From NCBI GenBank assembly GCA_963920765.1, contig OY987250.1, positions 14,686,409 to 14,750,408 on the forward strand: DNA of 64,000 nt. The letters run 5' to 3'. The notes below the pieces were generated by a model, which searched no databases, was not told where the DNA came from, and was given only the letters and a program-made list of their open reading frames with translations. Shown here piece by piece: positions 37,685 through 60,481 of this stretch. How positions within the stretch are numbered: position 1 is the stretch's first letter; every line of letters begins with the position of its first letter. Made by a program: the position numbers and the translations under genes. This DNA comes from Ulota crispa (Eukaryota; Streptophyta; Bryopsida; Orthotrichales; Orthotrichaceae).

Positions 37685-38179
37685 TGAGGGTTTGGCTTAC
37701 AGAAAACCAAAGTCATTCAAGGCTTAGGTGAAATTCAAAAATGACTTGAATATGGTATGCAAAAGTTACAATTGGTTAATACAAAGGGTAAAATTCCTAA
37801 ACCTGTAACCTAATTTATTTGTTCTGCAGTTCAGCATTCTCCAATAGTTGCTGAAGTTATCCTACGAGGAACCGGTTGCCATGTACGGTGGTCTTCAGTG
37901 ATCTGCACCCCTCTACATTGAAATTGCAAAAGAAACTCAAACATAGAGATGAAAATTTGATCCTGACACATTTAGCATTTAAATGCAAGGAATTCTCCAT
38001 AGCACTATACACCTCCCAAAAATCACACTCCTAAATATGATAAGCTTAAACGTAATGCGGAAAATGTCCTCTACCCTGCGTTAACTCGAGTTTTAGGTCC
38101 AGGTCTGAGAATAAGGTCAATGATTATGTAAGTTTACAAAAGAGAAGTGGGATATCATTTTTGTTACCAAAAGTGAACC

Positions 38180-41100
38180 TCAATTCTTTCCACTCTTGAT
38201 GCTTGCTAGAAGAGTCTTCATCCGAATCAGCTGATTATGCAGTCTCGTTAATTCGTTGACAGGAGCAGTATCTCGAACTTTGGTCCCCCAACACATAAAC
38301 GCTTTCTCTTCTTTAATCCATCCCATGTGGTTACTGATTTTTGAGCAAAGCCCTTGCGAAGTAAGAATAGCAGCCTCCATTTCAGCAAGTTGCTTCTCAA
38401 GTTTTGTTTCGGAGCTTTTCACAGGTGCGACGGGAAGAGCAATCTCCTCCGGAACTTTTTCCTTGTCTTTCTTCTCTTCCGGCGGAAGCAATTTGCTCTT
38501 CTCTTCTGCAGAGAGTACCCCAAGAGTATGTCAGCAAAGTTCAGAGTGCTGCGATCGTGCACTGCATAAGATTCATTGCAGCTTTCTTGACTTTCAGCGT
38601 CTCATGTTCCTTCAAATTTTCGTGAGAGTATATTATCCCGTAGGGTGAGTTACGGTTTAATATGTACACAAAAATACATATAAATATACAAGGGAATATT
38701 TCATGGATACCCCTGAAGTTATAGATACCCCTGCTTTTTCAGAAATATCACAAACACCCTTGGACCAAAAAATTTAGGCATTTGTTTTGTTATGCATGTC
38801 ACTTCCTTCTCCCTTTGTGCGCACAGTACTTCTTTCTTGTTATGCGTGCGCTCAAAGGAAGAAGGGAAGTGGCATGCACAACAAAACAAGCGCCTAAATT
38901 TTTTGGTTCAAGGGTATTGGTGATATTCCTGAAAAAGCAGGGTATCTATAAAATATTGCAAACTTCAGGAGTGTCCACGAAATTTTCCCAATATACAAAA
39001 CACATACAAATTCTGCATTTTACAAGGTTGTCTAATGTTGATGGGAGAGCGTACCTATCTCATTAACAACTATAACAGCCGGGGGCGGAGCGGGAGGCTC
39101 AATCTGAAATAATTTTACAAATGCAGAAGCCATCTCCTTTGCAGCCTTCATTTCAGCTTTGCAAATTTCCCGCAAGTCCTCCAGCTCTTGTCTAGTTGCT
39201 GCAATCTCAACCTGCAATAATTTCCAAAACAAGTTTCAAGCCCATGCGCTGCCAGTGGGAAAATGCCAATTGCAAAGACTTAAAGGGTGCATAGCTTATG
39301 TGCTGGGTGAAGGTAGCAACAAATTAGAAACGTGGAAAATTTGGGTCCCCTGACGATAGATCAAACCATAACAACGTTGTGCTGCAGATTCTGAAACTCC
39401 TAACCATGCACATCTTCATCCAAGAACACCATTTTGATCAGGCATTCAGATCTCAAAATGCAGCAGGTATGAAAAAAAAGGCCGTGTCAAGTGGCATACC
39501 GGTTCCCCTACGCCAAGACGAAAGCTATTCATTAACCAGTTGCCCATGCCAAAATCCGTCTCAACATCACGTCCTCGTTCAACCAAGCAGACTTCAAGGT
39601 TACAACCACTTCTGCTGGTAATGTTGGGTAATGTATCCAGCATTCTCTTCATTCGCTTCAGGAGTCCGTCAGTGCCCAATGCATCAGTTGAAGAGCCCGC
39701 TCTAAGCTCAGGTTGCTGACTGTCAAAATGGAGTGCTCGATTCAATTCATTCCTGACCACTTGAAGCCCCTCAATTCGCATCTGAAGGCATGCATTGATG
39801 TAGAACACACAACATGTATAAAACTCCGCCAGTCGATGTTTCTTGCAGTAAACACGAAAAATATACTAACTTGAATGCTTGATCAAGCCGATAAATAGAA
39901 CTCTTTCAAGTGAAGGATAAAGTGACTACAATGTGAGAAAATGAAAACGAACAGAATTCACTACCTTGGAACGAGGATACAAATTCTTTGATCAAGGTAC
40001 ATCGACTCATATAACAAAGTACTCACCGTTAGATTTTGCACGGTGCGAGGATGCCTTCTCACGTCTTTCTTTGAATTATCTGACATCACCTCAGTTCCAC
40101 GCCCAACAAATTGCATTCGTCGGAATGTAGCGTACCAACCAACGTCAGCTCCTGCATTCCCAAACTCCTGGTTCGAAGATTTCTTGTTTGGGTCAGCGGA
40201 AACTCTAACACCCTCAAGAGAAAAAAGCCAATCTAGAAGCTGAAGATCTAGATCGAGAATACCGAACATGTCCACGGGCCATACACTCTCGTTACTGGTG
40301 AGCATGGCAAGAACACCTGCACCTGCATCCGAGTAACCAATATATGAGAGGGATGCATTCAACTATGAAGTCACAGGACTGAACAATCCAGGAAAAGCTC
40401 AAAAAAATTTGAGAATAAAATACCGTTCTGATCCGCTTGAGACGGCCTTATTATATTCGCAATAGGTCCATTGGAGAAGAATTTTATTAGCTTCTTGATA
40501 TTCCGCCCTGGTACGCCTCCGGGACCAACAAAATGATACCTCTGCAGAAGTGACTCAACCTGACACATACTTCCTCCTAACCTTACTCCCCCAATTTTCG
40601 CAATCACTTGCAACTTCCAACCATCCGTGTCTTGCTGTTTATAAGGTATAAGCGTCTCCACGTCTATGTCCAAGAAAGGAGTTGTTGGAGAACTGTGCCC
40701 CTCATTTTCGCCCATTTTCCTTTCCACTGGTGCCATGCTGCCTCTCTCTTTTCCAATCCAGATCACAGGGTGCAACTTATATGAAGGGGATGCAACACTT
40801 GTCAGCTCCACTAAAGGTGGATCCTTCCCAGGGGGATCAAAACGTTGCCTCTCTATACTAGACGCTCGGCTGGAACTAGAAGATGACGAGATTGAGCTGT
40901 CAGGGCTTCGTAAATAGGAATCACTGGATGGAATATGGATTTTAGCTCCTTGAATTGAAGAAGTTCTGGTTTCTAAAGAAAGGGGTTCAGGTTCAGCACA
41001 TTCGATCCGAACGTCTTGCCAGATGAGTTTAGAGGTGACCATTGCCGCTTCTGCCAACTTCTTATGCGTGACGCTCAAGAGAACCTTCCAGCTTAGAAGC

Positions 41101-44100
41101 TTTGCCAGGGTTGGACCATCTTTGCTAACTCGCTTAGGAACTGCTGCTAGTAATCTAAATTCAAGAGAGCTCACGCTCAATATCAATCCCGTGTCAGCAG
41201 GTACCATGTCGAGCAATTTCTTAGCATTATATCCATCAAAATTCATTTCGATCTTTTCACGGGTAACCGACTTGCTCATCTCGTAGATTGCCTCTACAGC
41301 CCTCCCTGCCAATTGATACACTTTTAAAAGAAACGCGTATTGCTCCTGTGACATGTGGGCCACACATTTCTTGCAAGAAAGTCCCAGTCGAACAATTCCT
41401 CCTGAAGGGAAGAAGGTCATCAAAGGTTGCCCGTCACCTGATAGCAACGCAACTTCAACACCAAGGTCGGACGTTTCAACACAGTACCATAATCTTGCCG
41501 CCCAATCAGTTTCAGTGGAAGTACTTCTCTGAGCCGAGTCATCTAAATTCTCAGTTTCTAGTGCAATTGCTGCATTTGATGCGCGAAGCACCCACCTTCA
41601 CAAGAAAAACTCACATTAATTATGCAATACGTAATTATCAGCAGTATTTTTCCCATGAGCTAGATTGTGGAAACTTATACATACCTTTGATGATTTGATT
41701 CCGCTGCCTGGCCCTTCCATATGCTGCTGCATGCAGGATCGTTGTCAAGGTTTAACACCCGGAAGCTCAGAAATGGGCTATTTGCCATCGTGAAGCCTTC
41801 AATGTGAATCCGTATACCAGAAAAAGGCCCTCGGTCTGCTTTGTCCATCAATGCTCCGTTGATAGGAATAGTGAGATCGAATTCTTTAAAAGTCAGATAT
41901 GCAGCATGCAATGATCTGTCTGGTAGTTTCACTGCAGATTCCATAACAACTGACTCAGCGAAAAGCAAAACGAGCCGAAGGCATGTCGCTTCCTGGAGAA
42001 TAATCTGCTGAACCCAATAGAATGTCAGTGTAATTGTGAGGTCCTGTAGCATACCAGGACTTAAGATGATAACACATATGCCCAAAGAAACTTTCATGGT
42101 ATTTCAAAGCAGAGAAAACATGGCCTTTTAAATGGTGAAGATTACATATATATGAACCAAATAGCTTAGGCATCGGCAATAACCTGAAAGACATTAAAAA
42201 AAAAAGTGTAAATCCACGTGCAACAAATTCTCCTTGACTAGGAACTGTGTACTTGTATCACCAGTTAAAACCACCAATTATTTCCATGCAAGACGACGTG
42301 AAAATAGCTCTACTTCTCAAATTCCAAGTTCCACAACTTACCTTAAAGGGTTGGCATTGAACAACCAGTTGTGTGGCTAAAGCTGGAGGTAAAGGAGATG
42401 GTGTAACTTGAGAAGAGTACATGCATAGCATTGACGGTGTTTCCCGCCTAGACGTTAGCCAGCTCTCAAAAGGATGAATTTTGAACCATAACTTCTCACT
42501 AGCTGCAAAGAAAAAACAGAAACTTAGTGACAAAGACACTGTCAACGTTCTCAAACGACAAAAAGGCAAAGATAGACCATTAAAGTTGAAGATCAACGTC
42601 CTTACCAAACGCAGGAACGGCAGGTTTCACATTTGGATCAATAGTTCTAATGCTTGGTTGCACGAGCGTGCACGAGGGTTGCACTGAAATGTCTCTGCGG
42701 TATCATAACGTATCTGTTCAGATGTGAACCAAAAGAAACTGATTTGTTCAAGCACAACATGCGAGATTTAATACGGCATGAACCACTGAAATAGGGCATG
42801 AACCAATTCCCTTCTAATCCCTGTGACTCGAAAAGAAGACACCAGCTAAACGTAACACAAAGAAACTTCACAAAAGACATTGACTGCAAGTTATAGAATC
42901 GCAAAGCCGTGTGGAGGGGAACCTCTAGTCATGCAGAATCGTGATAATTAACATAATTCAACGTAGTAGGCAGTCACTGCCATCGGAGGATATATATAAT
43001 ACCTGAGATAGAGGGCTCCCACCATAATCCGAGTCATAGCCCTGATACTTCTCTGCTCCACTATACTTGCCTGTATTTCCAATATCAAATACGACTACAC
43101 GGTTAGAAAGCACTTCGCTAATCGTCACCATCTCTATAATTGGGTAGATAACATCCTGAGATCCATGTAGTCTAAACCAACTTCCACGACGTAAACACTA
43201 GACATGCAGTCATTGTCGAAACAGATCAATCCCCGATTTGCAAACTGTTACGCAAGCCTCACACCATCTCAAAAAAGCGTAGGTTCCTACAATCAGTCTT
43301 AAATATGGAATGTAACAGCCAGACTATAATCACATCAAGGGGCGCATAGACTTACTCGAACATACTGGAAGTGCTCCATGAGAAATTCCAGCTGAAAATC
43401 TGTAACAACAGGTAAAGATTTTACACAGAACAACGTATAAAAGGCGAAGGTCACGCCGGAGTCCTCGGTACTGATGCATCACGAGAACTATGCAGAAATC
43501 ATAGAGCATAGACTTACCAGGTAGAAATGAAAGTAATTCTCATGTGTGCTCTCAAACTAGCGTATGAACAGACTTGTTAGGGATGATATGGCTAATATGA
43601 GTTCTGCGCAAGCTAATCGGATCGCTACTTCTCCCCACTCATATAAAAGGATTACATGTGCTCAAATTTTTCGATCCAGAAACCTCTAATTCCAGCACCG
43701 TGATTTCCGCAATATACACAAATGTAACCACATAACAATTTCACCAGCAGCTTATCACTCGAGAATATGTATCTGTGCCGAGACTAAGTTGTGAAAGAAT
43801 AACTGAAAATCATAATCATACACAAGTATAAACTCAAGCCACACCTATTCATAGTAAGCATGCCCAAGTGAATCACTAATGCTAAATCCTGAATAGGCCT
43901 ATAAATTACAAATTGTTTAGACATACACAGCAATCGAGAGACCTTTCTCAAAGTGTACAGGTTTAACCAACTTATCACGATCGTTCAATAAGAGCAGCTT
44001 GAATTTGCAGCGATGAAAATTTACGGGACTCTTCTACAAAGAATAAAGCAGCAAGCTTACCAACATCCTTGACACTCAAGAACATGTAATCGACTTTCAA

Positions 44101-47100
44101 GCCGAAGACTGTTCGACCAGCTTCATCCGCAGCCTGCAAAAACATCATGCCGCTCGCTAAATGTCTTGCATTAAATAATGCATCCATCTATGTGTTAAAG
44201 AAAATTTTGGCATGAACAGAATTAGGAAGGTAAATGTTTTGCTCACTTCCGTACGAAGAACTTACAAGATTCGTTATCAGAGCAAGACAGTTACCTTTCT
44301 GCTTCTATAATCGTCGCTACATATAGGTACATACGATGACGACGTTAAATGATAAAAAGATGATACTCACCTTAAAACTTCGTACGTTCGCCTCTTCACG
44401 ATTCATACAAATTGTCATGCCAGTCATAAATCGAAGCAAAGCCTGCAAACCTACATTTTAAGGAACAACGTCAGAAGTCTCCCCATTACATCGTTTGGAG
44501 ATCTAGTGAGTCCCAATGATGATGTTCAATGTTTTAATTGTCACTTATCAAGGGAAGCAGAACGTAGGTAAAATTAGCTAATGCTACGAAGTTCAATTAC
44601 GTAGAAGGTCAGGAAAAGAAAACAAGTGTACCTGATTCATTTAAACGGGATGACAAGATTTCTGGAACATGCATCTGCAACTCGAGTCCAAAAGGGAGAT
44701 TCATATCTGTTCTTTGTATCGTAATCTGCAAACATCAATGCAAAACTGAGTTTTTTGCACAACAGCGTGGTAGTACTTTCTTTCACGAAAGGGGGTTAGA
44801 AGAGACCAGTGAAAAAACCAGAAAGGAGCAAGGAGTAGTATAGCAATGGGGATGCCCTCAAAGATGCCAACAAGAGTATAGATAATGCTTCATCATTTTC
44901 AACAAAAAAACGAGCAGTGGGTCTCATTAATTCAATCCAGCCTTTAATTAATCAAGAGCCAGAAAAATCTCGCAGATGTAGGTAAGCATTTATTAACCAT
45001 AACGCCATTATTTCAGAGCACTGAAGGTACCATGGTGAAGACGTACAGCAGATAAAACGATCACATATCTTACAGAGAATCTGTTGCAAGAAGAAATAGA
45101 TCATAAGGAATCTTACAAACGCACATCCTGAAACATTATCCAGTATCCGCTCCCCTCTCCGCATTCTCTCGCCGTCATGGTCCCAAGAGGAGTTCACCGG
45201 ATTACTGTTTCTCATATGATCAGATGGTGGCGGGAGCAGGTCAAGAGATAGAGACTCCCAAACAAGTTTCTGAATGGAAGAAACGAGACAACAGAATTTA
45301 GAAGAATCAAAGGAATGAGCACGGTATGCTCCAAGTGCTACGTTAAAGACAGAACTGGCGCAAGCTAAGATTATAGTCACTAAGAGTACTTGGGAAAGAA
45401 CTTCCAGCGAAAGAGAAAGCTATGCACCTCACAGTGAACGTGTTCAGTCAGTTATTCTAGATAAATCACCTTGAAGACATAAATGGCGCCTTTGTTCGTA
45501 GAAAAATCCCTTGCTTGACTTAGCGGAACAATCTGGTCATCCAATCAAGCCAGATTCAGCGAGAAGAAATCAAAGAATCATCAAATCTTTTGCATACACA
45601 CAATTCAAGTAAAAAAGCTTTAAGGTGTACATTGCTGCTATCACATTTAAGAACATGCTCATCACGGACGAGATACGTAGCCAGAATCACCTGCCATTTA
45701 TCGTCGGTGGTGTACAATTCCAGATTTGTTATGGTAATAGACGCCACATCGGGGGTCCTACAAGGAACAAAAAGAACTCTCAGCTCTCACATACATTATA
45801 ACCGATATAACTGAGCAAGTTTTTTGCTGCAGCGAGTGAAAACTGCTGGGAAAAATTCCAATACCCAGGAGTACGAACACATTATACACCGTGTAAGTCC
45901 CCTTACTGCAACATTCGTCAAGTTCAGATAATTACGGGTAATTGTCACCAATTACACAAAAGTACAAAACATGCAATATTTCAACAGAAGAAATTCCTGA
46001 CCAAGAAATAACACCTCAAGAGCAACTCACTTCGTCTTCGTTCGTTCCCGCGGTATACTGCCCTTCGTTTCAAGCATAATGTGAATTTTTCCTATCCTTA
46101 TTGTCATTCCATCTGCAAGCTGGAGATGAAAGAGGCATAAGATACCTGACTTGCGGTCTTACGATACCTCGCTAATACCTATAGCTTCACCACAACACCG
46201 AGAACATCACTAAACACAACTGCTAAGGTTACATACAACGCTCAGCACTAAGAATAAACATGACAAAGACTTTTACATTTTAATGATATTGACGTTCATG
46301 TCCACTTGAGGCGCTGCACTAAAAAGGTACTTCGAAAGATGATCACCTTGTCAGAGTATCCATAGCCATATCCATCACCAGAAGAATCTAAGGCTAAGGT
46401 CCTGCAGAAGATCACCATCGCAAAAAATAAACGTGCAGCAGAGAAACACGTTCCAAGATTGCGACAACTGAACGTATCAATAGTATACAGCGTAATGTAG
46501 ATTAGTACCCTGGAATATAGCCAAGGTCACTGTACAGTTTTTCGGATATTAACAGATCCAGCACGTCAATGTCCACAACAATCGGCTCCCTATGCACATT
46601 CGTGATAGACGCAACCTGCGGCGCCAATGTAAAAAATTTACCACCAAGAGCATCAGAGCACAATCGACAACAAGGAATTCCACAAAGAAATCAATCTACA
46701 CTGCCTCGTCATCTTCGCAACACCAATCAGCAATGTGCTCCACTGCTGGAGCACCTTGAACCAACTCAGAAGCACTCCTTCTAAGCTCTCTTCATTCATG
46801 GCACCACATACGCTTATCCCAGGCCGACACTTAAAGCATCTCATCGAAATCATGCTATACTGCTACTTCCTTCTCTCGCTCATCAAGATAACCTAATCAC
46901 CGAACATACAGGCTTAGCTGCAGCTCCACAAACGCACCCTTAGCTCCAGATTGCGAATCCGAGCCTCCGTGATCCGTAGAGTTGGAGGCAGCCCCAGGCT
47001 CGCATGAAGAGCATCTCCATCCACATCTGATACAGTCCACACAATCACACTTCATCTCACATTCCAGCCTCTCCACACACCTCTCTCACAAAACATCTCC

Positions 47101-47532
47101 TATAACCTGCTTCTAAATCAACCACCGCCATCTGCCGAAGCAATGTCAAAAAAAAAATCATTCACGAGCTACAACGCAACCGAGACAAAAATCTCCACTC
47201 AAAATTCGCTCATCACCAGCCCTACACAAACGTGAGTCTACGATCGAACAGTCCCGTCGAGCATTGTGTGCCCTCTGAAACAAACTCACGCAAACAACAC
47301 ACCACAGAAGCATGCGTTCACAACACCGATATCGGCCATGCTTTCAGGCATCACTCAAGGTGGATTAATTGCCAGATGCAACCACTCCTTGCAAAATCTC
47401 AGTCCACAGCGACTACCTACCTAAATCGTACAGCTGGAAGCTGCGTCCCAGTAGCCTGAACTGCTCCCTGTTGAACGACTTCAGCCAGTACCGAAACGTC
47501 GACTCCAAACCTCGCAGCAACAGCGACTCCAT
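38180..47532 (-). CDS. Plant UHRF1BP1-like (BLTP3-type) bridge-like lipid-transfer protein, 21 exons
   Basis: This is a Chorein_N-starting rod protein of the VPS13/BLTP superfamily, thought to channel lipids at membrane contacts. Exons: 47532-47421, 47026-46938, 46615-46509, 46401-46347, 46119-46031, 45757-45691, 45532-45470, 45269-45117, 44725-44632, 44450-44371, 44133-44061, 43399-43356, 43070-43003, 42694-42606, 42502-42342, 42004-41685, 41595-40424, 40316-40027, 39781-39500, 39211-39055 and 38505-38180. All phases fit, giving 1,296 residues. Landmarks: MESLLLRGLESTFRYWLKSF (Chorein_N start), REPIVVDIDVLDLL, ASITITNLELYTTDDKW, ITIQRTDMNLPFGLELQ, RLLNL-like VLNLDNDPACSSIWKGQ, GGIVRLGLSCKKCV, DWLFSLEGV, and a C-terminal coiled coil (SETKLEKQLAEMEAAI, LTRLHNQLIRMKTLL). 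Its 5' end is duplicated in inverted orientation at 51146-53186. Confidence 0.9.
38692..38989. mobile_element. MITE in the last introns of the BLTP3-like gene (298 bp)
   Basis: The ends GGGAATATTTCATGGATACC and GGAGTGTCCACGAAATTTTCCC are inverted, and the whole unit is close to palindromic (GCATTTGTTTTGTTATGCATG ... TGGCATGCACAACAAAACAAG). It lies in the intron between exons 20 and 21. A copy sits at 50803-51119, right at the edge of the inverted duplication. Confidence 0.75.
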
Positions 47533-48478
47533 CGCCGTCGGACCACAACACAGCTCCCTCGTCCAACCTACTCCGCTTCGGCGACGACGCAGATCACACA
47601 ATCCACACAATTGCCGAACCTCGCGCTTTCGCACACCACAAACAACGAACAGAAACCTAATCCTCTGTAATTTAGTAACGCCTCAACACCGACTCGGCGA
47701 CGTCATCGCCGTCCGCTCGCTTCAACCTCACGCCACACTCTCTCCCTCCCTCAAGCACCTCTTCGCGGCGACATCGCCACTCTATCTATCCAGCTTCAAA
47801 CCTCCGCCACAGCTCATAAGGCCGCATGCACAACAAGCCACCGATACTCCTACCATCAATTGCGCGCCTCTCCAGCGCTGCACCTGTCCAAACGGCTTCC
47901 ACCGCAGATCCTTTCAATTAATAAACCCCGGCACTCCCGCACAGCATCCAATCGAGGCCCGATTACAACGATCCGACCGACGAAGGGATCGGTTCCAGGA
48001 GATGCTCACACCGACGGACCTCCTGCTTCCAGAAGAACTCCAAGTCCATAAAACCTACAAATGGCTACAAATGGCAAGAATAATCAGGAGCACGTCGCGT
48101 AAGTTGCAGAGAATCCGGATGCGATGAGAAGGTTATCAACTGTGCCGAAAGATTCTCGAGAGATTGTTGGAGGAGAAACGGGATTTGAAATGGAGGCTGC
48201 GAAATGTGTGTCGGAGACACGAGAAAGCTTTGAGGGCGGCAGTGCGAAAAGCAATGGAGACAGTATTTGAGAGCTCCCTTCGGAGTGGTGACTCAGGTTT
48301 CTGCCACGTGGAGGGGAGGAGTGACGTGGCAGGGAGTTCTGGACGGACTCTAGGTGATGACTTGGAATGGCCCAATCATTGGGGCACGATAGTGCCTAGG
48401 TGGCAGGAGATTGCCACGTTGGAACAGTGATGGGTCGAGGACTGCTACTCGCCTGACCGACTTCGCTGATGTGGCAGG
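46654..48478. repeat. Inverted duplication, left arm (parent copy)
   Basis: About 1.8 kb spanning intron 2, exon 2, intron 1, exon 1 and the upstream region of the BLTP3-like gene. It is repeated in opposite orientation at 51146-53186. The exon 2 segment is essentially identical for about 95 bases, and exon 1 differs by one amino acid (L to Q), so the duplication looks fairly recent. The distal edge is near 48478 (GATGTGGCAGG). Confidence 0.88.
48061..48430 (+). CDS. Possible divergent gene sharing the BLTP3-like promoter
   Basis: A short first exon is suggested by ATG at 48061 (MATNGKNNQEHVA) followed by a strong donor, GTAAGT, at 48099. Further on an open frame (48131-48430) reads ILERLLEEKRDLKWRLR ... 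KALRAAVRKAMETVF and ends VPRWQEIATLEQ; a basic, helical stretch. The splice joining them was not resolved. In the right arm the equivalent of the ATG is changed and the helical stretch has a stop, so if real, only the left copy is intact. It may instead be 5' UTR-type sequence of no coding value. Confidence 0.28.
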
Positions 48479-48621
48479 CGGTGTCGTACCGTTGCTCCAG
48501 TGGATGGAGTTTTCTACCAGAAAGTGCTCCTGAATGTTAGGCACCACTTTTGGCCTTTGGGTAACTGTAGATTGATTCCATTTGGTTGTCAACGGAGAGT
48601 TTTGGGTACGAAATTATTTTG

Positions 48622-48868
48622 TTAACCCCTGAGCGTCCAAGGGGCCAAATATGGCTTCTCTGTTTTGAAAAATGTTCATGTTTGACTCTTATCTTTTTCT
48701 TAATGATAAAGTCAAAGGACTTGTACTTTTTCATGTACTTTCAAGCATGTGTTTACTACCACTCAAAAAAATTCAAACTATTTGATTTTACTTAAGTAAT
48801 ACTTTTATTGAACTAAGTACACAAAGATATGGATTTGAGTGAATATGGCATGGGCGCTCAGGGGTTAA
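48622..48868. mobile_element. TTAA-bounded piggyBac-like miniature element (247 bp)
   Basis: Begins TTAACCCCTGAGCGTCCAAG and ends GGGCGCTCAGGGGTTAA, with TTAA at both sides. Partner of 18271-18518. It lies in the spacer of the inverted duplication, 144 bases from the left arm. Confidence 0.85.
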
Positions 48869-49958
48869 CAATAAGGTCCACAACCAGAAGTCAAATCACC
48901 CCTTCCCTATACTTCAACTTTTCACCATAGTCACTCATCAAATGTGAATTTTATTCGTTGTACTGTTTGAATGCGAGTGACCATAAGTGCTTGATACAAG
49001 GTCCAAAAAAGTTTACTTCAATTTTGGAGGAGAGTTTGCTGAGCCTAGTTTTTTATTTTTTATTTGCTTATTAATTTAATAATCTGGATTTTTCATAATT
49101 GTAAGTAAGATATAGCATCTCATCTTTGCATATTATGTACTTAAAGATATTATTGATTAAATTAGTGTGGATGGTCATAGTGGAGAATGTGGACATTGGA
49201 CAGTAAATAATCATTTAAACATGTAGAAACCTTTATTGAAACGAGTGTGCCTTGCTTGTGCTTTGCACTACGTCCATTTGAGATTTGCAGAATTGAAATG
49301 TTATAAGTTCAAATTTGAGAAAGTTTGATGACTATTCACAATTCCAAATGAATTTTAAAAATTTCAATGACTTTTTACATTCAAATGACTTTTCACCCTC
49401 ATTTTGGGTGCTGTTTCCTCTCCCTTTGTGATATTTCATGCTTTGAGTGCCTTTTCATCTCTTTTCTTCCCTCTCTATTAGAACTTGTGGTGTTAGTAAA
49501 AAATTTATGGCATGCCACGTCATTATATCATGAGACACTTTAACGTGAGACATACACACCATGCTTTATAGTATAAATTTACCTTTAACTCATTTTTGAA
49601 CTCTTTGTTCATAGTGACTTCTTAATAATTGACAAGAAACAAATATTCCTAAACAATGTAATTATAATTCATACCACTAAAATTGGTTAGAGGAACAAAA
49701 AAAAATTTATTTTAATTCAATTTTTAATGCAATAAACTCGAGAAACCAAAATAATTTTCATGTTGTTTTAGTTTAAATTTAAGAAATAAAACAATGTTTG
49801 AGATAATTTCTCATGTCCTTACAAGGAAACATTGTTGATTCAATTACTTTCTATGTATTTGGATGTGTCAATTTGGACATATTTTGTCAAATAGGACACA
49901 TTTAGTCAATTTGGACATTGTTTTTTTGTAGTAAGTGATGATCTTGTACTACCAACCC
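48869..49958. other. Spacer of the inverted duplication, AT-rich, no gene
   Basis: No coding frame was recognised. Around 49860-49935 there are repeats of TTGGACA/GTCAA ending in TTTTTTTGTAGTAAGTG, which looks like one end of a CACTA-type element (terminus CACTTACTACAAAAAAA in reverse). Confidence 0.4.
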
Positions 49959-50275
49959 TCATTACAAGGGATTTGGACCCCCAAAGGGGCTATGAGTTTT
50001 TTTGTTCCCAATGTTGGGAACCAACCCCTGCTGGTCATCAGAAAAATTAATAAAAAAAAATCAAAAATCAAAAAAAGTCTTAGAAACAAATAAGAACATT
50101 TTTGAATTATTTTCAAAAAATACAAAATAAAAAAGTAATACAAGCTGACGTGGTCGACGTGGTCAATGTAGTGCCAACCTGGCATGCAGCACACTGCCCA
50201 TGTGGAAGGTGTTCCCAAAGCTCCCATGAATTTGGTGAAAGGGGCCTATTTGGGGGTCCAAATCCCTTGTAATGA
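49959..50275. mobile_element. Miniature TIR element, TCATTACAAGGGATTTGG family (317 bp)
   Basis: Left end TCATTACAAGGGATTTGGAC and right end GTCCAAATCCCTTGTAATGA form a perfect inverted repeat of at least 20 bases, continuing CCCCCAAA/TTTGGGGG. No second copy was seen in the window. No coding frame. Confidence 0.8.
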
Positions 50276-50503
50276 CCAATCCTTGCATATCTTTTTATCT
50301 AATCATCCTCCTAAAAGTGAGGAAAATCTGGTTGTAGTAAACTAGGATGGAGGAGTTGCCTCACTAAATGGGCGATTTATCATTCTCAATGATGCTATTT
50401 AACAACCGAAGCATTTAGTGCAGCAAGGCTATCAATTTCTCTTGGCTTTGGAGAGCATTCTAATTGTATAGAAAATTGTTCCCAAAATTCCAAATTGTAC
50501 ATA

Positions 50504-50610
50504 CATTACAAAGAAAATGGCGTTCACAATTATTGTAAAGTGTCCTCAATGACTCATTTTAGTCGTTATTTAGTCATTGTCATTGTGAACGTATTGTTTT
50601 TTTTGTAATG
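50504..50610. mobile_element. CACTA-like miniature element (107 bp), GTTCAC family
   Basis: The left CATTACAAAGAAAATGGCG and right CGTATTGTTTTTTTTGTAATG are inverted, with GTTCACAATT / CATTGTGAAC just inside. Interior similar to 34941-35086 and the end at 2686-2705. Confidence 0.6.
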
Positions 50611-50720
50611 ATAAAAATCAAAAAGAACCATGCATATTTAATAATTCAACAATGAAATCATATTTACAATCAGCCTCTCTGTACACATACAAAAACATTA
50701 AAAATTTATATATGTACATT

Positions 50721-50723
<3 letters not shown>

Positions 50724-50778
<55 letters not shown>
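50724..50778. repeat. AT dinucleotide microsatellite
   Basis: About 27 uninterrupted AT units in the spacer of the inverted duplication, likely hypervariable and able to form cruciforms. Confidence 0.9.
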
Positions 50779-50780
<2 letters not shown>

Positions 50781-50802
50781 TAAATGTAACTAAATACATC
50801 AT

Positions 50803-51119
50803 GAGAAAATTTCATGAATACTCTTGAAGTTTGCAATAATTACATAAATACCTCACTTTTCTAGAAATTACACAAATATTCTTGGACAAAAAGTTTCAAG
50901 CATTTCCTTTGTTCCGGATGCCACTTCCCTTCTTCCTTTGTGCATACATTGCTTCTTTTATATTTCATTACATTTCCTTCTTCAACATTATCATGAAAGA
51001 AGTACAAGCACAACAAATAAATGCCTAATTATTTTGATCTAATGTTACTTATGTAATTGCTGAAAAAGCACTATGCAAATATTGTATTGCAAACTTCAGG
51101 GGTATCCATGAAATATTCC
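50803..51119. mobile_element. MITE at the edge of the inverted duplication (317 bp)
   Basis: Ends GAAAATTTCATGAATAC and GGTATCCATGAAATATTCC; internal words CTTGGACAAAAAGTTTCAAG and AATGCCTAATTATTTTGATC match the intronic MITE at 38692-38989. It stops about 27 bases before the right arm begins at 51146. Confidence 0.7.
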
Positions 51120-52131
51120 TTACAAAATAGGGTAAATTTAGACTACTATTCCTGCCACATCGGCGAAGTCGGTCAGGCGAGTAGCAGCCTCGGACCCATC
51201 ACTGTTCCAACGTGGCAATCTCCTGCCACCTAGGCACTTTCCTGCCCCAATGATTGGGCCATTCCAAGTCATCACCTAGAGTCCGTCCAGAACTCCCTGC
51301 CACGTCACTCCTCCCCTCCACGTGGCATAAACCTGAGTCACCACTCCGAAGGGAGCTCTCAAATACCGGTCGCCGTTGCTTTTCGCACTGCCGGCCTCTA
51401 AACTTTCTCGTGTCTCCGATACACATTTTGCAGCCTCCATTTCGAATCCCGTTCCTCAATCTCTAACAATCTCTTGAGAATCTTTCGACACAGTTGTTAA
51501 TCTTCTCATCGCATTCGGATTCTCTGCAACTTACGCGACGTGCTCCTGATCATTCTTGCCATTTATCGGTTTTGTGAACTTGGAGTTCTCCTGGAAGCAG
51601 GAGGTCCGTCGGTGTGAGCATCTCCTGGAACCGATCCCTTCGTCGGTTGAATTGTTGTAATCGAGCCTCGATTGGATGCTGTGCGGGAGTGCCGTGGTTT
51701 ATTAATTGAAAGGATCTGCGGTGGAAGCCGTTTGGACAGGTGCAGCGCTGGAGAGGCGCGCAATTGATGGTAGGAGTATCGGTGGCTTGTTGTGCATGCG
51801 GCCTTATGAGCTGTGGCGGAGGTTTGAAGCTGGATAGATAGAGTGGCGATGTCGCCGCGAAGAGGTGCATGAGGAAGAGAGAGTGTGGCGTGAGGTTGAG
51901 GCGAGCGGACGGCGATGACGTCGCCGAGTCGGTGTTGAGGCGTTATTGAATTACAGAGGATTAGGTTACTAAATTACAGAGGATTAGGTTTGTACTCGAG
52001 GTAGAATTTTTTTTTTTTGGTGTGCGCCTGTGCGGAAGCGCGAGGTTCAGCAATTATCTGGATTGTGTGATCTGCGTCGTCGCCGAAGCGGAGTAGGTTG
52101 GACGAGGGAGCTGTTTTGTTGTCAGACGGCG

Positions 52132-52723
52132 ATGGAGTCGCTGTTGCTGCGAGGTCTGGAGTCGACGTTTCGGTACTGGCAGAAGTCGTTCAACAGGGAG
52201 CAGTTCAGGCTACTGGGACGCAGCTTCCAGCTGTACGATTTAGGTAGGTAGTCGCTGTGGAGTGATTTTTTTGCAAGGAGTGGATGCGTCTGTAAACCGA
52301 TCCACCTTGAGTGATGCCTGAAAGCATGGCCGATATCGGCGTAGCGAACGCAAGCGTCTTTGGTGTGTTGTTTGCGTCAATTACGTTTCTGAGAGCACAC
52401 AATGTATGTTAGGACTGGTCGATCGTGGTTGGTCAAATTTACAATTGTAGGAGGCTGGTGATGAGCGAATTGTCAGTGGAGATTTTGTCTCGGTTTGAGT
52501 TGTAGCTCGTGTTGACATTGCTTCGGCAGATGGCGGTGGTTGATTTAGGAACAAGTTTTGGAGGACGTTTTGTGAGGGAGTTGTGTGGAGAGGCTGGAAT
52601 GTGAGATGAAGTGTGATTGTGTGGATTGTGTCAGATGTGGATGGAGATGCTCTTCATGCGAGCCTGGGGCTGCCTCCAACTCTACGGATCACGGAGGCTC
52701 GGATTCGCAATCTGGAGCTAAGG
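52132..52723 (+). pseudogene. Duplicated exons 1 and 2 of the BLTP3-like gene
   Basis: Exon 1 copy 52132-52243 encodes MESLLLRGLESTFRYWQKSF and ends with the intact donor TAG|GTAGGTAG. Exon 2 copy 52635-52723 encodes VDGDALHASLGLPPTLRITE ... IRNLELR with intact acceptor (TGTCAG) and donor (GTGCGTTTG). Exon 3 and everything after it are absent, so no lipid-transfer protein can be made. Both exons are open and in correct phase, which makes them able to serve as 5' exons for the next gene (HSCB). Confidence 0.75.
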
Positions 52724-52879
52724 GTGCGTTTGTGGAGCCCTGGGCAAACCTTTCTGTTTGGTGATTAGGTTGTCTTGACGAGCGAGAGGAGGAATAGCAG
52801 CATAGCATGAGTTTGATGAGATGCTTTGAATGTCGACCTGGCCCAAGCGTGCGTGGTGCCATGAATGAAGAAAGAATAT

Positions 52880-53050
52880 TCTTTCGTGAAAACAGTGTCC
52901 AATTGACACGTCCGAATTGACAATAAAATGTCCGAATTGACAACAAAATATCCGAATTGATTAAACCTGTCCGAATTGTGAATAAAATGTCCGAATTAAC
53001 ACATCCGAATCTACAAAATCTGACCGAATTGACACCGTTTTCTTTTAGTG
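52880..53050. mobile_element. CACTA-like insert built of GTCCGAATTGACAATAAAAT repeats
   Basis: The insert is present in the right arm and absent from the left. Ends TTCGTGAAAACAGTGTC and GACACCGTTTTCTTTTAGTGAA are inverted; the right end reads CACTAAAAGAAAAC in reverse. The interior is six or seven degenerate 20-base units based on TCCGAATTGACA. It entered after, or independently of, the duplication. Similar GGACA/GATTAGGACA tandem sequences occur at 23340-23450 and 49860-49930. Confidence 0.65.
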
Positions 53051-53165
53051 AATGGAAGTAGTGCTTGTGAGTTGGTTTGCGAGGTGCTCCAGCAGTGGAG
53101 CACATTGCTAATTCATGTTGCGAAGATGACGAGGCAATGTAGATTGTTTTCGTTGTGAATTGTAT

Positions 53166-55639
53166 ATGATGTCGATTCTGCTTGGATCCCTATTAAATTC
53201 ACACTTTGTTTTTTGGTCACAGGAATCGCAGGAGTTTGATCGGCAGGCAATAGTTCCACAATCCTTTTCGGGTTCTGTTTTCTGGGATGGATTGTATGTA
53301 GCGGCGCCAAAATTCGTCTCATCGTCTGAAAGGGTAGCTCAGGAATTCGCATCCCTTAGTTGTAGTCGCGCATTGTTTTCTGGAGTTAGGGTTAGGGGTT
53401 TAGGTCGAACTGCGAGGGGGTTTTCGAGTACAAGTGTACAGCAGCAGGTGGATGTGAAATGTTGGTCGTGCGAGGAAAAATCTGCCAAGTCTCCGTTTTT
53501 CGTTTGTCCTTCGTGCAGGGCGATCCAACCGTTGGATCAAGATGCCGATTTCTTTAAACTCCTGTCTGTGTAAGTCTTTCATTTTGCAAATTTGTTTGTG
53601 TACTTTTCCCGAATCCTTAAAAAGTCTTTGATTTATCTTATAGAAGTATCTGTGGCTTAGATTTATCCTTATGTATATTGTTTTACGGAATACAGGTTTT
53701 GGATGATACTTGCATTGGAATAGTTGATCTTTTCAATCCACGGGAAAGGGAAGAACGCAAAATGGGCTTCATGGAAAGATTACGATGGAAAATGACAAGT
53801 ATGCAACTTACGTAGAAGTGTGTTTGAGGTGAAACAGGGACAGAAGCTATATACAGGATTCTAAGGTTCTGGAAAAAAATTACAAGCAACTTCAGAAATT
53901 CTTGCACCCTGATCTGTCAAGCGGGAAATCAGAGGTTTGTTGCCCTTCCTTTATGCGTTAGTGATGACCATTGTTTATCACTTGAGTGACTCTTCAGTTT
54001 ATCATCAAGGCTCTATTTCACCTCTAGAGGACAAAGTGTTCATGTTTTTGAAATGGCCAATTTGAGTTTATCATAATTTGAAAGCACAAATTATATTACT
54101 TACATATCAGTCAAATTTGTATGAGATTGAACAAAAGAAAAATCCACAGGTGAATTATCCTTTGAATGTGCTGCCCAATTCGAGCCGCTTGGTCCTTTAG
54201 GAAATTAGATTTGTTCATTAAATTTTTCTTCTAATTTTGCAGAGAGAGCAAGGCTATGCTGCTGATCAGTCTGCTCAAGTGATCAAGGCCTACTATACTC
54301 TCTTGGGGCCCTTGTCTCGTGCTCAGTACATGGTGAGTTCATTCTAAACCTGAGGCTCATAGTAGCTCTCTCATCCATTTTCCTTTATACAATTCGCGTT
54401 TAAACAAGCAATTCCCTAATTTTTGCACTTGACCAAGTGCTCTTTGCTTTTGAAATTGTTTTGCACAAACAAGCGTGAGATTTGTAAAACATCTGAAAAC
54501 CTAGGCGGTTTCTTTTTCTTTTTCTTTTAGTTCAGCTGAAGCTCTAATTCAATTTGGTGGGTTGTGTGGATGTTACAAATTCTGTCCTAATGAGGGCAAA
54601 ACAAAGAATATAGATTAATGAATAAGAAATACTCATGACTCGCAGTATTCGTTGCTGCTGGACAGTTGCAATTGAACGGTGTGAACGTGGATGAGGAAGG
54701 CACAATTGATGATCCTGAACTGCTCATGGAGGTACTTATTCTAATCATTTCATTACTACAGTTATTTCGTTTATGTTATGCTCTGGTCTTTCCAGTAAAA
54801 GGCATATATATCTAGGAGGTATTGCGATTCGAGCTGAGTGACTGCAACATAACCTCTATTTGTGTCTCTTTGCAGAATGCTTTACACAATATCGCAGCTT
54901 TTTTTTACCTCACTCATATCTGCTGCACATTCTTGTTTTTATGTACAGATTATGGAGCTGCGAGAAGAAGTTGAAGAAGCAACGGATGCCGAGAAGCTTA
55001 TCAACTTAAAAGAGGAGGTACGCTTATTCGTCTCTATCTCTTGCGTTTTGATTATGTTGGAACCCTTTTCCGCGGCTTTGAGTGATTTCCTTTACTAAAA
55101 TGGAGATTTTATAATATCTGTTGGATTTGTTTCTAAAAAGGATTTTAAGTCACCAAAGCATGTATTGTTTGGATACTATATAAACAAATTATGAATTATT
55201 GAAGCAATAGGGTTCCAATCCCAAGCTTGACTAATTTTGAACCATGAATGTTGTATATATGATGCATCTCATGGAAACGTCTTTTGTTGTGGTAGACCTT
55301 AAAAGTATCTCATTTCTTAGAAGTCTTGTGTTGGCACAATACTCGTATCGTAAATGGGTGACCATTTTAAAGGGACCGGTTCAAAGGGTTTGGTTTATTA
55401 ATTATGTGAAGAATCTTGTTTAGGCTTGTGATGTGTTTAGTACAAACTTGTTGTGGCCTTATAGTCCAGCTAATTTAGTAATTTTTTTTGTTTTGATGCA
55501 GAACAAGAAGAAAATGCTCGAGTGTGAGAACTCTTTGAAGGGGGTGTTTGAAAGTGGGGCTATTTCAAATGCTGTTCCGCTTGTGCAACGCATGACTTAC
55601 TATTATAAGATAATTGAAGAGATTACTAGAAAGCAGTAG
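53166..55639 (+). CDS. HSCB: HSCB, mitochondrial Fe-S cluster J-domain co-chaperone (6 exons, 287 aa)
   Basis: HSCB delivers the ISCU-bound Fe-S cluster to its Hsp70 partner and stimulates its ATPase. Exons: 53166-53569, 53838-53934, 54243-54332, 54666-54731, 54949-55017 and 55502-55639; all phases fit (287 residues). The N-terminus is Arg/Ser/Phe-rich (RGLGRTARGFSSTS), fitting a mitochondrial transit peptide. Then comes the CxxC...CxxC metal-binding module typical of plant and animal HSCB (CWSCEEKSAKSPFFVCPSC), the J domain with HPD (KFLHPDLSSGKSE), and the HSCB C-terminal helices (GVNVDEEGTIDDPELLMEIM, VFESGAISNAVPLVQRMTYY). The only in-frame ATGs (53166, 53169) lie within or at the edge of the inverted-duplication arm, so the true 5' end may be spliced from the copied exons at 52132-52723 onto the acceptor at 53222. 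Confidence 0.9.
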
Positions 55640-56631
55640 TCTGTTATTTTACTTCTTACTAGAGGAATGACCTTCTCAATCTTACTAACAAACCTTGAGA
55701 ATATGATCTTTTGCAAATGAAACTGAGTGCTAGCTAAGAGCAAAGAACATTGCATGTTATTATGAGCACACCTAATTGCTGCTGCTCTTTGAGCGTAGTT
55801 TCTACCATTCAGATGGGCAGATTTTTTTGAACTGTCTTTGTTTGCAGAGTAAGCAGGATTCAAACACATCAAAAGAAGTTACAATTATTCAAAGTTTCAT
55901 TTTATTATTATGTAAAATTGTCATGAGTTTTGACGTCAGGGTAAGGTGCATTCTCAGAATCGACACGTACTCTTTGTGCGAGATTTGGGAGTCTCATTTG
56001 GATAGGTTTTGCAATTACGTTTGGTTACTTTGGAAAAGAAGAGTTTGAATGTGGATTTTGAAACTTGTATTGTCTGCATTTCTGCAATGTTGTCAAAAGA
56101 ATTGATACCAGACCAAATAACCAAATAACTTTACTTTCTTCATTTTCAAAGGTGGTCAAACACACAATGTTTTGAAAAATGTATATTATTGTGGCCTCTT
56201 ATTCCTTCAGCCAACCGTGTCTATAAAATAAAACATAGGAAACAAATGCTTGAAAATCTGAACTTCTTGGTGTACCAAGTATTACTGTCATTTTATTGAA
56301 AGTTAAAATGCAAGATGTTTTGCATGGTGTAGCTCTTTGATAATGTCTCTCATTTTAAACACCTAAAAAAAGCTGTTTATTTTATCAAATCTAGTCGCAA
56401 AATCTTTTTTCTATTGTAATGGGGGAGGACAAAGATTGGGAACACCTTATTATTCCATTCAAAGAACTTTGCATTACATAGAATATAATTGACATTTTAT
56501 TATTTGATATCATTGGTGTTTAATTCTTATGCAATCCCCATTTACCATACCAAATTTCAATTCCCAAAAACCAAGCCCCTATTTTCAAGTCAACCCTTAA
56601 ACGCCGGGTTGGTCATTGCGACTGGCTCGGC
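55640..56631. other. HSCB downstream region with a foldback-element fragment
   Basis: Bases 56435-56600 match the arm of the Stowaway-like element at 27770-27900 in diverged form (ATTCAAAGAACTTTGCATT, ATCCCCATTTACCATACCAA). The 90-codon frame at 55776-56048 is not recognised and lies in the expected 3' UTR. Confidence 0.4.
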
Positions 56632-57042
56632 TAAGGTAAACACACCGTTTTCCAAGCATCTCCCAATTTTGATCCCTATTTTTTGGGGCTACTCCACTCA
56701 CTATTGAACCCGAAGTGGAGTAGTGAATGCCTCTTGCACAAGCAAATTCTGCCACATGTTAGGTGCTAAGTTACTTTGAGATGGTTGGGATTGGGACCCT
56801 CAAGTGTCATTATAGGAACACATCCAAGTAGTTTCAAGGGTAGTCTAGAGTTGCTAACAAGGATCCTATGAGCTGCAACTTTGCCCTTCAATATAAAATA
56901 ATCTACAATATGTTTTTCCACCTAAATTACATTCCATGATAGCTTGTTGAAAGCTATACCTTGTTGATTTGTTTCTTGAATTCTCCGAGACCTTCAGGTA
57001 CCCCAAACCCTTAAACAGTTGGGTATGGGTGTGTTTACCTTA
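56632..57042. mobile_element. TIR element, TAAGGT...ACCTTA family (411 bp)
   Basis: Begins TAAGGTAAACACACC and ends GGTGTGTTTACCTTA, a perfect 15-base inverted repeat. Length and outer TIR match the elements at 9891, 20087 and 26368, though the inner TIR sequence differs. Confidence 0.72.
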
Positions 57043-57970
57043 ATTGAACTGGTTTTGCATTTGAACTCTTGACTCACCTTGATTTTGGGTTTTGACTTGA
57101 GCCCACAATTCACCCTCTGAAACTGAAGAGCTTCTTTTTGGCAAATTTTTGCCTAATTCTTACCTCGAATTGCCCCTTGCAACCTATACACTAAAAAATT
57201 TGTGAGAAACATTGGATGAAATAGCCTAGTTCCTCCATACTCAAACATCATGTTCTCCACATTTTGGATGAAAGTAACTTGTATTAATAATCTTATTGGA
57301 CGAACATGTGCAAATCATTCATTCATTCTAGTTTAAGCCAATTTTTCTTTACTAGCGTGCATTTTGGGGTGCAAGTCTGTCTACCTTGAGAAAAATAAAA
57401 AAAAGAAAACCATGTTTGAAACTCTCTGGTTTGTTTCCGAACGTCTGCTTGGCACAGGAATTTAGAGCTGAAGAATCTCTTATAACTTATCTGTCGGCCT
57501 CTTGCATTGCTTCGAAATCAGGTTGCCCAAATTGCCTTCGTCTGTTTGTGGAGCACAACACTAATTTTCAATGCTTTGAAAAGCAAAAGTGTAGTTTTAT
57601 AATACAACCGAAATAAAACTCACTATTTGCTTCTACATCAAAATTTTAAAAAATGTAAAATTAAATACACTTAAAATAAAGTAAAAGCAAAAGAAAGTAA
57701 AAGAACAAAAGAAAAAGTTTTAAAATTTATTATATAAAGGAAGGATGTATATATATATACATATAGTATATATAAGGAATTGATATACACCCGAGGTTTG
57801 TTATATGTACATCAAGGGTATATTTTGAAACCTCTGCCGATTTTATTTTTTTTTACAGTTCTCAAGGTTTGGAGGAGTTAGGGATTTCCCTCCGATTGCT
57901 TGCTTACATTTAGGGTTTCCCTTCGATTGCTTGCATTTAGGGTTCCACCGCTGCTTCAACCAAAAAGGTC
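57043..57970. promoter_or_regulatory. Upstream region of the DEAH helicase copy
   Basis: Bases 57120-57370 are a reverse copy of the dispersed repeat at 26040-26290. At 57878-57945 a short tandem duplication contains ATTTAGGGTTTCCC and ATTTAGGGTT, telo-box type motifs usual in plant housekeeping promoters. The frame at 57386-57616 is not recognised. A TATAAG-rich stretch lies near 57768-57775. Promoter function is inferred from these motifs. Confidence 0.35.
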
Positions 57971-60481
57971 ATGGACAAGTTCATTAAGCTCACAACGCAC
58001 CCAAAATCTGAGGAAGCGACAAGAAGACGACATCGTGAAGCTGCTCTGGAGCTGAGAAACATTTCCAGAGAAGAATATCTGAATAAAAGAAAAGCGAAAA
58101 AACTGCAGGAGTTGGAGGATGAGTTGATTGACAAAGAGCGTTTTTTTGGAGGAATGGAATTGACAGTTAAAGAGCAAGCGGAGTTCAAATACAAGAGGGA
58201 GGTTTATGAGCTTGCAAAGACACTTGCCAAAATTGAGGATGACGGCAATATGGTTAGGTGTGTGATACTTGATGCATCATATGACACGGCAGCAAAATCT
58301 CTGGAACGGGATGGTGATAAGGAGAGAGTTGCAGATCACTTTGCGGGACAAGATGCGTGGGAGAAACATCAAGTAGGCAAAGCAACATTGAAATTTGGAG
58401 CTGGTAACATAAAAAAGGGGGAGGAGTATGAATATGTTTATGAGGATCAGATTGAGTTTATTCAGGCTGGTAGAGATGGGGTTGATGAGGATCATGCAGA
58501 GTACAAACTAAACCCCAGAAAATCAGCCAAAACTAAGGTTGGAAAATTAGGGTTAGGGTTAGGGTTACTGGAGGAGCGGAAGTGTTTGCCCATCTTTGCT
58601 TACCGAGAGGAGCTGTTGGATGCGATCAAGGAGCATCAGATTCTTGTGATAGAAGGGGAGACGGGATGTGGAAAAACCACACAGATTCCACAGTATTTGC
58701 ATGAAGCAGGGTACAGCAAGCATGGGAAGAAGATTGGTTGCACACAACCGAGGAGAGTTGCAGCAATGAGTGTTGCTGCACGAGTGGCTCAAGAAATGGG
58801 AGTGAAGCTTGGCCGTGAAGTGGGGTATTCAATTCGTTTTGAGGATTGCACGTCAAGCACCACGGTGTTGAAGTACATGACAGATGGAATGCTTCTAAGG
58901 GAGTTTTTGGGTGAGCCAGATCTTGCAAGCTACAGCATTATCATGCTTGATGAAGCTCATGAACGAACGTTATCAACTGATGTTTTGTTTGGTTTGGTGA
59001 AGGATATTACCAGATCTCGGCCAGATTTCAAGCTGCTAATCTCAAGTGCAACTCTTGATGCACAAAAATTCTTTGATTATTTTGATGGAGCCCCTATTTT
59101 TCGGATTCCAAGGCGACGTTTTCTAGTGGACATTTTGTATGCAAAAGCTCCAGAAGCGGATCCTTTGGAGGCGGCTTTAGGGACAGTCGTGCAAATTCAT
59201 GTGACGCAGCCACCGGGGGATGTGTTGGTGTTCCTCACTAGTCGAGAGGAGATTGAGACGGCAGAGGAGATTTTGAAGCACCGAATACAACGTTTGGGCT
59301 CCAAAGTAGCAGAGTTGATTATATGCCCTATTTATGCAAATCTTCCACCGGATGTGTAAGCAAAGGTGTTTGAGGAGACACCGAAAGGGGTACGGAAGGT
59401 GGTTCTAGCTACAAACATAGCAGAGACGTGAGTGACAATTGATGATATCAAGTACGTGATTGATCCTGGCTTTTGTAAACAAAAATGCTACAGCCCTCGG
59501 ATTGGAATGGAGTCTTTGGTTGTCACTCCTATTTCACGAGCAGCAGCTCAACAACGTGTAGGTCGAGCTGGGCGTACTTCTCCTAGGAAATGCTTTCGTT
59601 TATATACTGCATGGGCGTTTTACAATGAAATGGAGGAGAACACGGTTCCCGAGATCCAGAGGACAAACTTGGGGAATGTGGTACTTTTGTTGAAGAGTAT
59701 AGGCATTAATGATATCCTAAACTTTGACTTCATGGATCCTCCTCCGGTAGAGACTCTAATGAAGGCTTTGGAGCAGCTATATGCACTTGGTGCATTGAAT
59801 TACCGAGGAGAATTGACAAAAATGGGCACACGTATGGCGGAGTTTCCACTTGACCCCATGCTTTCCAAGATGTTGGTTGCTTCTGAGAAGTATGAATGCT
59901 CGGAGGAGATTGTTACCATCTGTGCCATGTTGTCTGTGGGAAACTCTGTTTTTTACCGCCCTAAGGACAAGCGAGTGCATGCTGATAATGCACATATGAT
60001 TTTTCATGCAAGGAATGTGGGAGATCATATTGCTCTTATGAAGGTTTATGATTCTTGGAAGGAGACGAACTATTCCACTCGGTGGTGTTACGAGAATTAC
60101 ATCCAGGTGCGAAGTTTGAAGCGAGCTCGTGATATTCGTGACCAATTGGTAGGTCTTTTAGAGAGGGTGGAGATTGAGGTTACTTCTAATCCTACTAAAC
60201 TTGATAACATTCGGAAGGCCATCACGTCTGGTTTTTTCTATCATACAGCAAAGTTGCAGAAATTTGGAAGCTATCGCACCATAAAGAATGCACAGATAGC
60301 AAACATACATCCAAGTTCAGGCCTTGCTGAGGATTTACCAAGACGGGTTGTGTACCATGAGTTAGTGTTGACATCAAAGGAGTACATGCAACATGTCATT
60401 GAGATCAAGCCAAAGTGGTTAGTGGAGATTGCACCTCACTACTACAAGTTGACAGATAATGGAGGTCGCAAAATGCTTTAA
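57971..60481 (+). pseudogene. DEAH-box splicing helicase (PRP2/DHX16 type), intronless with two in-frame stops
   Basis: The parent family is the DEAH/RHA helicase PRP2/DHX16, which activates the spliceosome before the first splicing step. From [11 protein letters not shown] the frame covers 836 codons without an intron. Motif [10 protein letters not shown] (about residue 228), DEAH (327), SAT (359), [14 protein letters not shown] (about 528), then winged-helix, ratchet and OB regions to [12 protein letters not shown] are present. The N-terminal roughly 200 residues of the usual 1,040 are missing or beyond recognition. In-frame TAA (59357-59359, just before AKVFEETPKG) and TGA (59429-59431, within motif V, AET-stop-VTID) interrupt it. 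The family's G in PGRR is R. Three TTAGGG units (58547-58566) are embedded in the linker. It looks like a retrocopy, long kept under constraint. Confidence 0.82.

Follow-up and report, generated by a model that had tools for sequence, protein, structure and literature searches.

An old partial inverted duplication appears to have supplied the gene for HSCB, the mitochondrial iron-sulfur (Fe-S) J-protein, of Ulota crispa with a new promoter, a new leader and 67 N-terminal residues, all copied from the 5' end of an adjacent gene that resembles the lipid-transfer gene BLTP3. We give this reading, which is built from genomic sequence, a probability of about 0.7. The locus lies in a stretch of 64,000 nucleotides (the window; contig 9, positions 14686409-14750408), and searches beyond it were made in the assembly of 274.8 Mb and 157 contigs.

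A sequence-only reading of the window had described an inverted repeat of the promoter, exon 1, intron 1, exon 2 and part of intron 2 of the BLTP3-like gene, with arms of about 1.8 and 2.0 kb set 2.7 kb apart. Self-alignment bore this out, the arms measuring 1,822 bp (left) and 2,032 bp (right) and the spacer between them 2,672 bp. The components of the repeat are:

46657-48478, minus strand: left arm, holding the source copy of the BLTP3-like 5' end, from promoter and leader through exons 1 and 2 with the intron between them into part of intron 2, placed by self-BLAST and by its exons
47421-47532, minus strand: BLTP3-like exon 1 (MESLLLRG...), with the same exon end in a paralog on contig 5
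46938-47026, minus strand: BLTP3-like exon 2, 89 nt, with the same boundaries and length in the contig 5 paralog
51151-53182, plus strand: right arm, the inverted copy of the BLTP3-like 5' end, placed by self-BLAST and arm alignment
52879-53054, plus strand: dispersed repeat in the copied intron 2, present in the right arm only, found by arm alignment and genome search

Two inverted self-BLAST blocks make up the repeat, one of 88.07% over 1,752 columns (46786-48478 against 52874-51151) and one of 85.2% over 128 columns (46657-46781 against 53182-53055). Gaps apart, the arms were aligned at 1,796 sites, and 157 of these carry substitutions (91% site identity). There are also 15 gaps, one of them at the extreme end of the alignment. 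Among the 15 is the 176-bp insert at 52879-53054, to which the greater length of the right arm is chiefly due; the others reach up to 35 bp. With scoring confined to the best 40 of 144 candidates, this insert had at least 40 matches in the genome, its own locus included. Searching the whole assembly with the left arm returned five matches: one was the arm itself, two were pieces of the right arm, and two were weak (73-75%; 123 and 140 query bases) and fell on a repeat in intron 2. The latter, a dispersed repeat of about 125-140 bp at 46736-46875, has its 73-75% matches on contig 5 and elsewhere on contig 9, and in the right copy it is interrupted by a second inserted repeat.

Between the arms the introns differ at 102 of 661 sites (15.4%; K80 distance 0.174), with 59/381 substitutions in intron 1 and 27/155 and 16/125 in the two compared stretches of intron 2. 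By this divergence the duplication is old, which speaks against the suggestion that a rearrangement was still in progress. Plant substitution rates are 5-10e-9 per site per year. With these rates rather than those of the species itself, the intron K80 would date the event to roughly 9-17 million years ago.

Exon A of HSCB begins at 53223, 40 bp past the end of the right arm at 53182. The HSCB exons were placed by hand from reading frames and GT-AG sites, and together with the two copied exons they give the following proposed gene:

52132-52243, plus strand: the copy of exon 1, which would open the coding sequence of the chimeric HSCB gene
52635-52723, plus strand: copied exon 2, proposed second coding exon, with a phase-0 donor
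53223-53569, plus strand: HSCB exon A (presequence-like stretch, CWSC and CPSC)
53838-53934, plus strand: HSCB exon B (HPD motif)
54243-54332, plus strand: HSCB exon C
54666-54731, plus strand: HSCB exon D
54949-55017, plus strand: HSCB exon E
55502-55639, plus strand: HSCB exon F, with the stop codon

The six HSCB exons form a stop-free frame. The HSCB_C profile PF07743 scored 70.5 bits against its curated cut-off of 22.1, the NCBIfam model hscB (TIGR00714) reached 101.3 against 46.75, and the protein aligned to human HSCB (3bvo_A) over 146-334 with an E value of 1.8e-31; three other HscB models stayed below their cut-offs of 169-198. The HPD motif of the J-domain is present, PF00226 scoring 25.3 bits, just under its cut-off of 27.8. 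CWSC and CPSC are visible and aligned to 3bvo, and PF18256, the profile for the tetracysteine motif at the N-terminus of eukaryotic HSCB, gave 13.2 against a cut-off of 26.2 on the exon-A frame and was unlisted for the chimera at E ≤0.1. Copy number was judged from exon-by-exon searches that scored the best candidates (2 for the profile, 9 for the protein). Both matches of the HSCB_C profile, in two exons, and all six matches of the 268-residue HSCB part (E up to 1) fell here; elsewhere in the assembly no HSCB match was found.

In the HSCB part the first in-frame methionine is residue 178, beyond the HPD motif at 139. Since no in-frame methionine precedes HPD, a start upstream of 53223 is required, and the copied ATG in the right arm is the best of several candidates. 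Joined from there, the eight exons amount to 1,008 nt and a stop-free open reading frame of 335 residues, with GT-AG at all seven introns. Copied exon 1 ends in phase 1, the 89-nt exon 2 restores phase 0 and exon A starts in phase 0, so the frame depends on the presence of both copies. A run of T precedes the acceptor of exon A, and the exon-2 donor is, by our reading, the one that the left gene would use to reach its own exon 3. Two genic sources thus enter the chimera, and the parent of the copied part is still present. A new promoter for a neighbour was among the outcomes that the sequence-only reading had offered; the sequence supports this idea and extends it, in that the neighbour is HSCB and two copied coding exons are placed to join it in frame.

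The substitutions between the arms are distributed in a way that may reflect constraint on the copied exons. As had been noted before, exon 2 is nearly identical between the arms and exon 1 has a single residue change: we counted 0/89 substitutions in exon 2 and 2/112 in exon 1, one of them silent and the other L17Q. The resulting 2/201 compares with 102/661 in the adjoining introns (Fisher p 1.3e-10) and with 155/1,595 in the rest of the arms (Fisher p 1.8e-6), and about 15 changes would be expected had the exons of the right copy drifted at half the intron rate. The 60 positions 3' of each exon carry 10/59 and 12/60 substitutions, and counts upstream of exon 1 are 13/249 (51151-51400), 17/197 (51401-51600) and 15/188 (51901-52131). 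When two exon-sized windows were placed at random, as few changes were met in 221 of 20,000 placements, and circular shifts gave 59/1,796. Exon-biased conservation is, on these sequence comparisons, real and not overwhelming: it is strong against the introns and moderate against random placement.

Exons 1 and 2 belong to a lipid-transfer family, for contig 5 carries another lipid-transfer gene (matches at 24602842-24606244; 11 matched tblastx stretches), a paralog whose exon 1 ends at the same point and whose exon 2 likewise measures 89 nt; identity over the best exon-1 match is 64%. No HSCB match lies beside the paralog, all HSCB matches among the best candidates scored in the profile and protein searches being on contig 9. 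Leucine stands at position 17 in the paralog, so L17Q is probably a change of the right copy. At codon 9, the silent difference (TTG on the left, CTG on the right, CTT in the paralog) is more likely to have originated on the left. From the left arm, lipid-transfer-like frames extend leftwards to about 38.2 kb. A hand-stitched N-terminus of 275 residues, the only part compared with Pfam, scored below cut-off with BLTP3A_B (PF24917; 14.3 bits against 24), VPS13_N (20.8 against 80) and ATG2_CAD (17.0 against 50). With these scores, the donor is likely a bridge-like lipid transfer relative, and we do not file it as BLTP3.

The promoter cores of the two arms are nearly identical, with identity runs of 46, 85 and 38 nt:

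48263-48436, minus strand: left promoter core, counterpart of 51193-51366, with coordinates counted from the alignment
51193-51366, plus strand: right promoter core, differing little from its left counterpart and containing TGGGCC and CACGTG

By gene orientation, both predicted promoters point away from the spacer, in agreement with the outward-facing arrangement described before. Of the motifs in the right core, TGGGCC has a putative association with genes for mitochondrial proteins.

Under the proposed course of events, a piece of about 1.8 kb of the BLTP3-like gene, comprising promoter, leader, exons 1 and 2 and part of intron 2, would have been copied in inverted orientation directly upstream of HSCB, where it replaced or displaced the gene's own front end. 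Transcription would then run rightward from the right-arm promoter, the copied intron-2 donor would be spliced to the HSCB acceptor at 53222/53223, and the borrowed ATG would serve as the start of a chimera of 335 residues, 67 from the lipid-transfer protein followed by HSCB. The borrowed N-terminal helix, together with the presequence-like stretch of HSCB, could direct import to mitochondria, and cleavage of these signals there would leave an ordinary mature HSCB. Among 24 18-mers sampled over chimera residues 1-156, the first two stood out by the largest helical moments (0.57 and 0.63; net charges +1 and +2), and a basic stretch in exon A that ends in ARGFSS resembles, as judged by eye, the end of a presequence. 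We suggest only tentatively, from these sequence features, that the first helix of the lipid-transfer protein now acts as the targeting peptide of HSCB and that the duplicated promoter jointly controls lipid transfer and Fe-S assembly at a single divergent locus.

Several observations weigh against a chimeric HSCB. Low divergence is not confined to the copied exons: the 60 positions 5' of each exon carry only 3/60 and 4/60 substitutions, the region 51601-51900 only 8/300, and within the latter lies one long identical stretch:

51696-51868, plus strand: leader stretch of 173 bp, identical in both arms, counterpart of 47755-47927

This run exceeds the longest one met in 2,000 shuffles (150). It might be a conserved leader, an upstream open reading frame or a conversion tract, and gene conversion or leader constraint may contribute to the low divergence. 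The openness of exon A before the presequence counts for little, since it occurs by chance in 757 of 3,000 shuffles over 42 codons and in 223 of 3,000 over 60 codons, and the single-copy status of HSCB rests on the best 2 and 9 candidates of the searches. Moreover, the right arm holds other possible starts. No stop interrupts the frame from 53130 to the end of exon A, in which in-frame ATGs stand at 53166 and 53169, and a scan for single-exon starts (phase-0 donor filter GT[AG]NG, at least 12 codons) found five in the right arm that would encode 14 to 30 residues:

53166-53171, plus strand: rival start within the copied intron 2, a pair of in-frame ATGs where the left arm has TTGTTG
52314-52403, plus strand: rival start within the copied intron 1, a single exon for 30 residues with a phase-0 donor and the longest of the five; its left counterpart contains a stop

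These starts would allow HSCB to have captured promoter and leader without any protein fusion, its translation beginning elsewhere in the right arm, with copied exons 1 and 2 as mere passengers or as leader. Translation would begin either at ATGATG (53166/53169), in an RNA that keeps intron 2 or begins within it, or in one single exon spliced to 53223. We regard this as unlikely. TTGTTG stands in the left arm in place of the ATGATG, and a protein begun at 53166 would have no arginine or lysine before the residues DR. As for the single-exon starts, the left counterparts of three of the five (two of them nested) contain a stop, and the five stretches have diverged like introns (11/89, 11/77, 12/37, 8/42 and 8/42 substitutions). 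Nor would any alternative start in the right arm account for the low divergence of exons 1 and 2.

It is more doubtful still that the right arm is inert, that HSCB relies on a native exon and promoter which escaped detection, and that gene conversion from the left arm kept the exons alike. Conversion tracts would fit the patchy identity between the arms, including the 173-bp run, but the low-divergence tracts take in both coding exons, and exon A begins at only 40 bp from the arm. In the spacer, the scan yielded one of its six phase-0 single-exon candidates, which encodes 15 residues and starts in the end of a dispersed element; with multi-exon routes not searched, we rejected this single candidate for a native first exon as unconvincing.

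Comparison of the gene body (37901-46650) with both 48481-64000 and 1-37900 by tblastx (18 alignment rows) and blastn (3 rows) gave matches only between two miniature inverted-repeat transposable elements (MITEs), one near 38.7-39.0 kb and the other at 50.8-51.1 kb. A whole-gene inverted duplicate that later decayed was rejected, as no gene-body match was found beyond this pair; an older complete duplicate may have been reduced by deletion.

The earlier suggestion that the repeat is a source of hairpin RNA, which in our terms would silence the parent or the neighbour, was dismissed as the main explanation on layout. Inverted duplication is a route to plant small-RNA loci, and arms of 1.8-2.0 kb with 91% site identity could pair. 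However, such an RNA is very improbable here because both predicted promoters point away from the spacer: neither transcript would span both arms, and both mRNAs would carry the same sense sequence. No known RNA family was matched in 46000-56000 at Rfam gathering thresholds, which is weak evidence. We scarcely credit an assembly artefact, since an artefactual palindrome should be nearly identical in its arms, whereas these differ at 157 of 1,796 sites and by 15 gaps, among them an insert of 176 bp private to the right arm.

The spacer was described before as carrying a TTAA element, further MITEs and an AT tract, and four elements plus an AT tract (near 50702-50801) were indeed found:

48479-51150, no strand assigned: spacer with four dispersed elements, the AT tract and some 1.35 kb of further sequence low in GC (guanine plus cytosine), by sequence comparison
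48621-48869, no strand assigned: MITE-like element with TTAA ends
49243-49581, no strand assigned: dispersed element, edges approximate
49959-50275, no strand assigned: MITE-like element with 32-nt terminal inverted repeats
50802-51118, no strand assigned: MITE-like element, separated from the right arm by 32 bp

An element does stand where a MITE was said to abut the right arm, but given the gap of 32 bp it abuts nearly and not exactly. All four elements recur in the genome at 81-90% (best 40 of 5,832 candidates scored). Elements and AT tract make up about half of the spacer, and the remainder has 25-44% GC against 50-52% in the arms. A MITE at 38681-38990, near the 3' end of the BLTP3-like gene, is of the same family as the element at 50802-51118.

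Elsewhere in the window, a cactin C-terminus is encoded at 29675-30040 (PF09732, E 2.5e-51), and 57941-60481 holds a gene like those of DEAH-type splicing helicases (named by eye; DEAD profile E 3.5e-6). In the assembly, fragments of plastid psaA/psaB occur on ten contigs (C1-C10), some with open frames of more than 200 codons; there were 48 PF00223 matches in all, two of which are the intact genes on contig 157. The plastid PsaA of that contig had its best scores with 8htu_A and 6l35_A, both from Physcomitrium patens, as would suit a moss or close bryophyte.

Chimeric genes formed by partial duplication are already known as a kind, and this case, if read correctly, joins them. Extracts of a study on Oryza fusion genes describe the duplication of one parent beside a second gene; in type II fusions, as here, the duplicated parent fuses with an unduplicated neighbour and remains detectable (PMC9199173). 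Unlike those, the copy in Ulota lies in inverted orientation, facing its parent head to head, no HSCB match other than the recipient was found, and the case is known from sequence alone. Partial and chimeric duplicates in the excerpted account of Katju likewise include 5' partial duplicates that complete their reading frame with other sequence (PMC3449122), whereas the completing sequence here is a whole conserved gene and not exonised intergenic DNA. In Drosophila yakuba, local duplication has similarly produced chimeric structures and shuffled regulatory elements (PMC5460883); compared with those tandem duplications with regulatory change, the present one is inverted, old by its introns and described solely at the DNA level. 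The Arabidopsis protein AtHscB, as presented in extracts of PMC2764847, is also a J-protein with HPD. It has a predicted targeting peptide of 59 residues, is found in mitochondria and cytosol and rescues yeast jac1, the yeast counterpart being essential. Its open reading frame of 759 nt contrasts with the 1,008 nt of the proposed chimera, which adds the lipid-transfer N-terminus. Among the matches listed in the open-licence PMC literature there was no BLTP3-HSCB fusion.

What is uncommon here is that donor and copy lie inverted, head to head and still side by side, and that no HSCB other than the recipient was found. If the chimeric reading holds, part of an unrelated gene would have taken the place of promoter and N-terminus in the sole HSCB gene found, and would have stayed there over the time in which the introns came to differ by 15%. 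The locus would then be a concrete, dateable example of an inverted duplication that replaced a promoter and a presequence, with the donor alongside for comparison.

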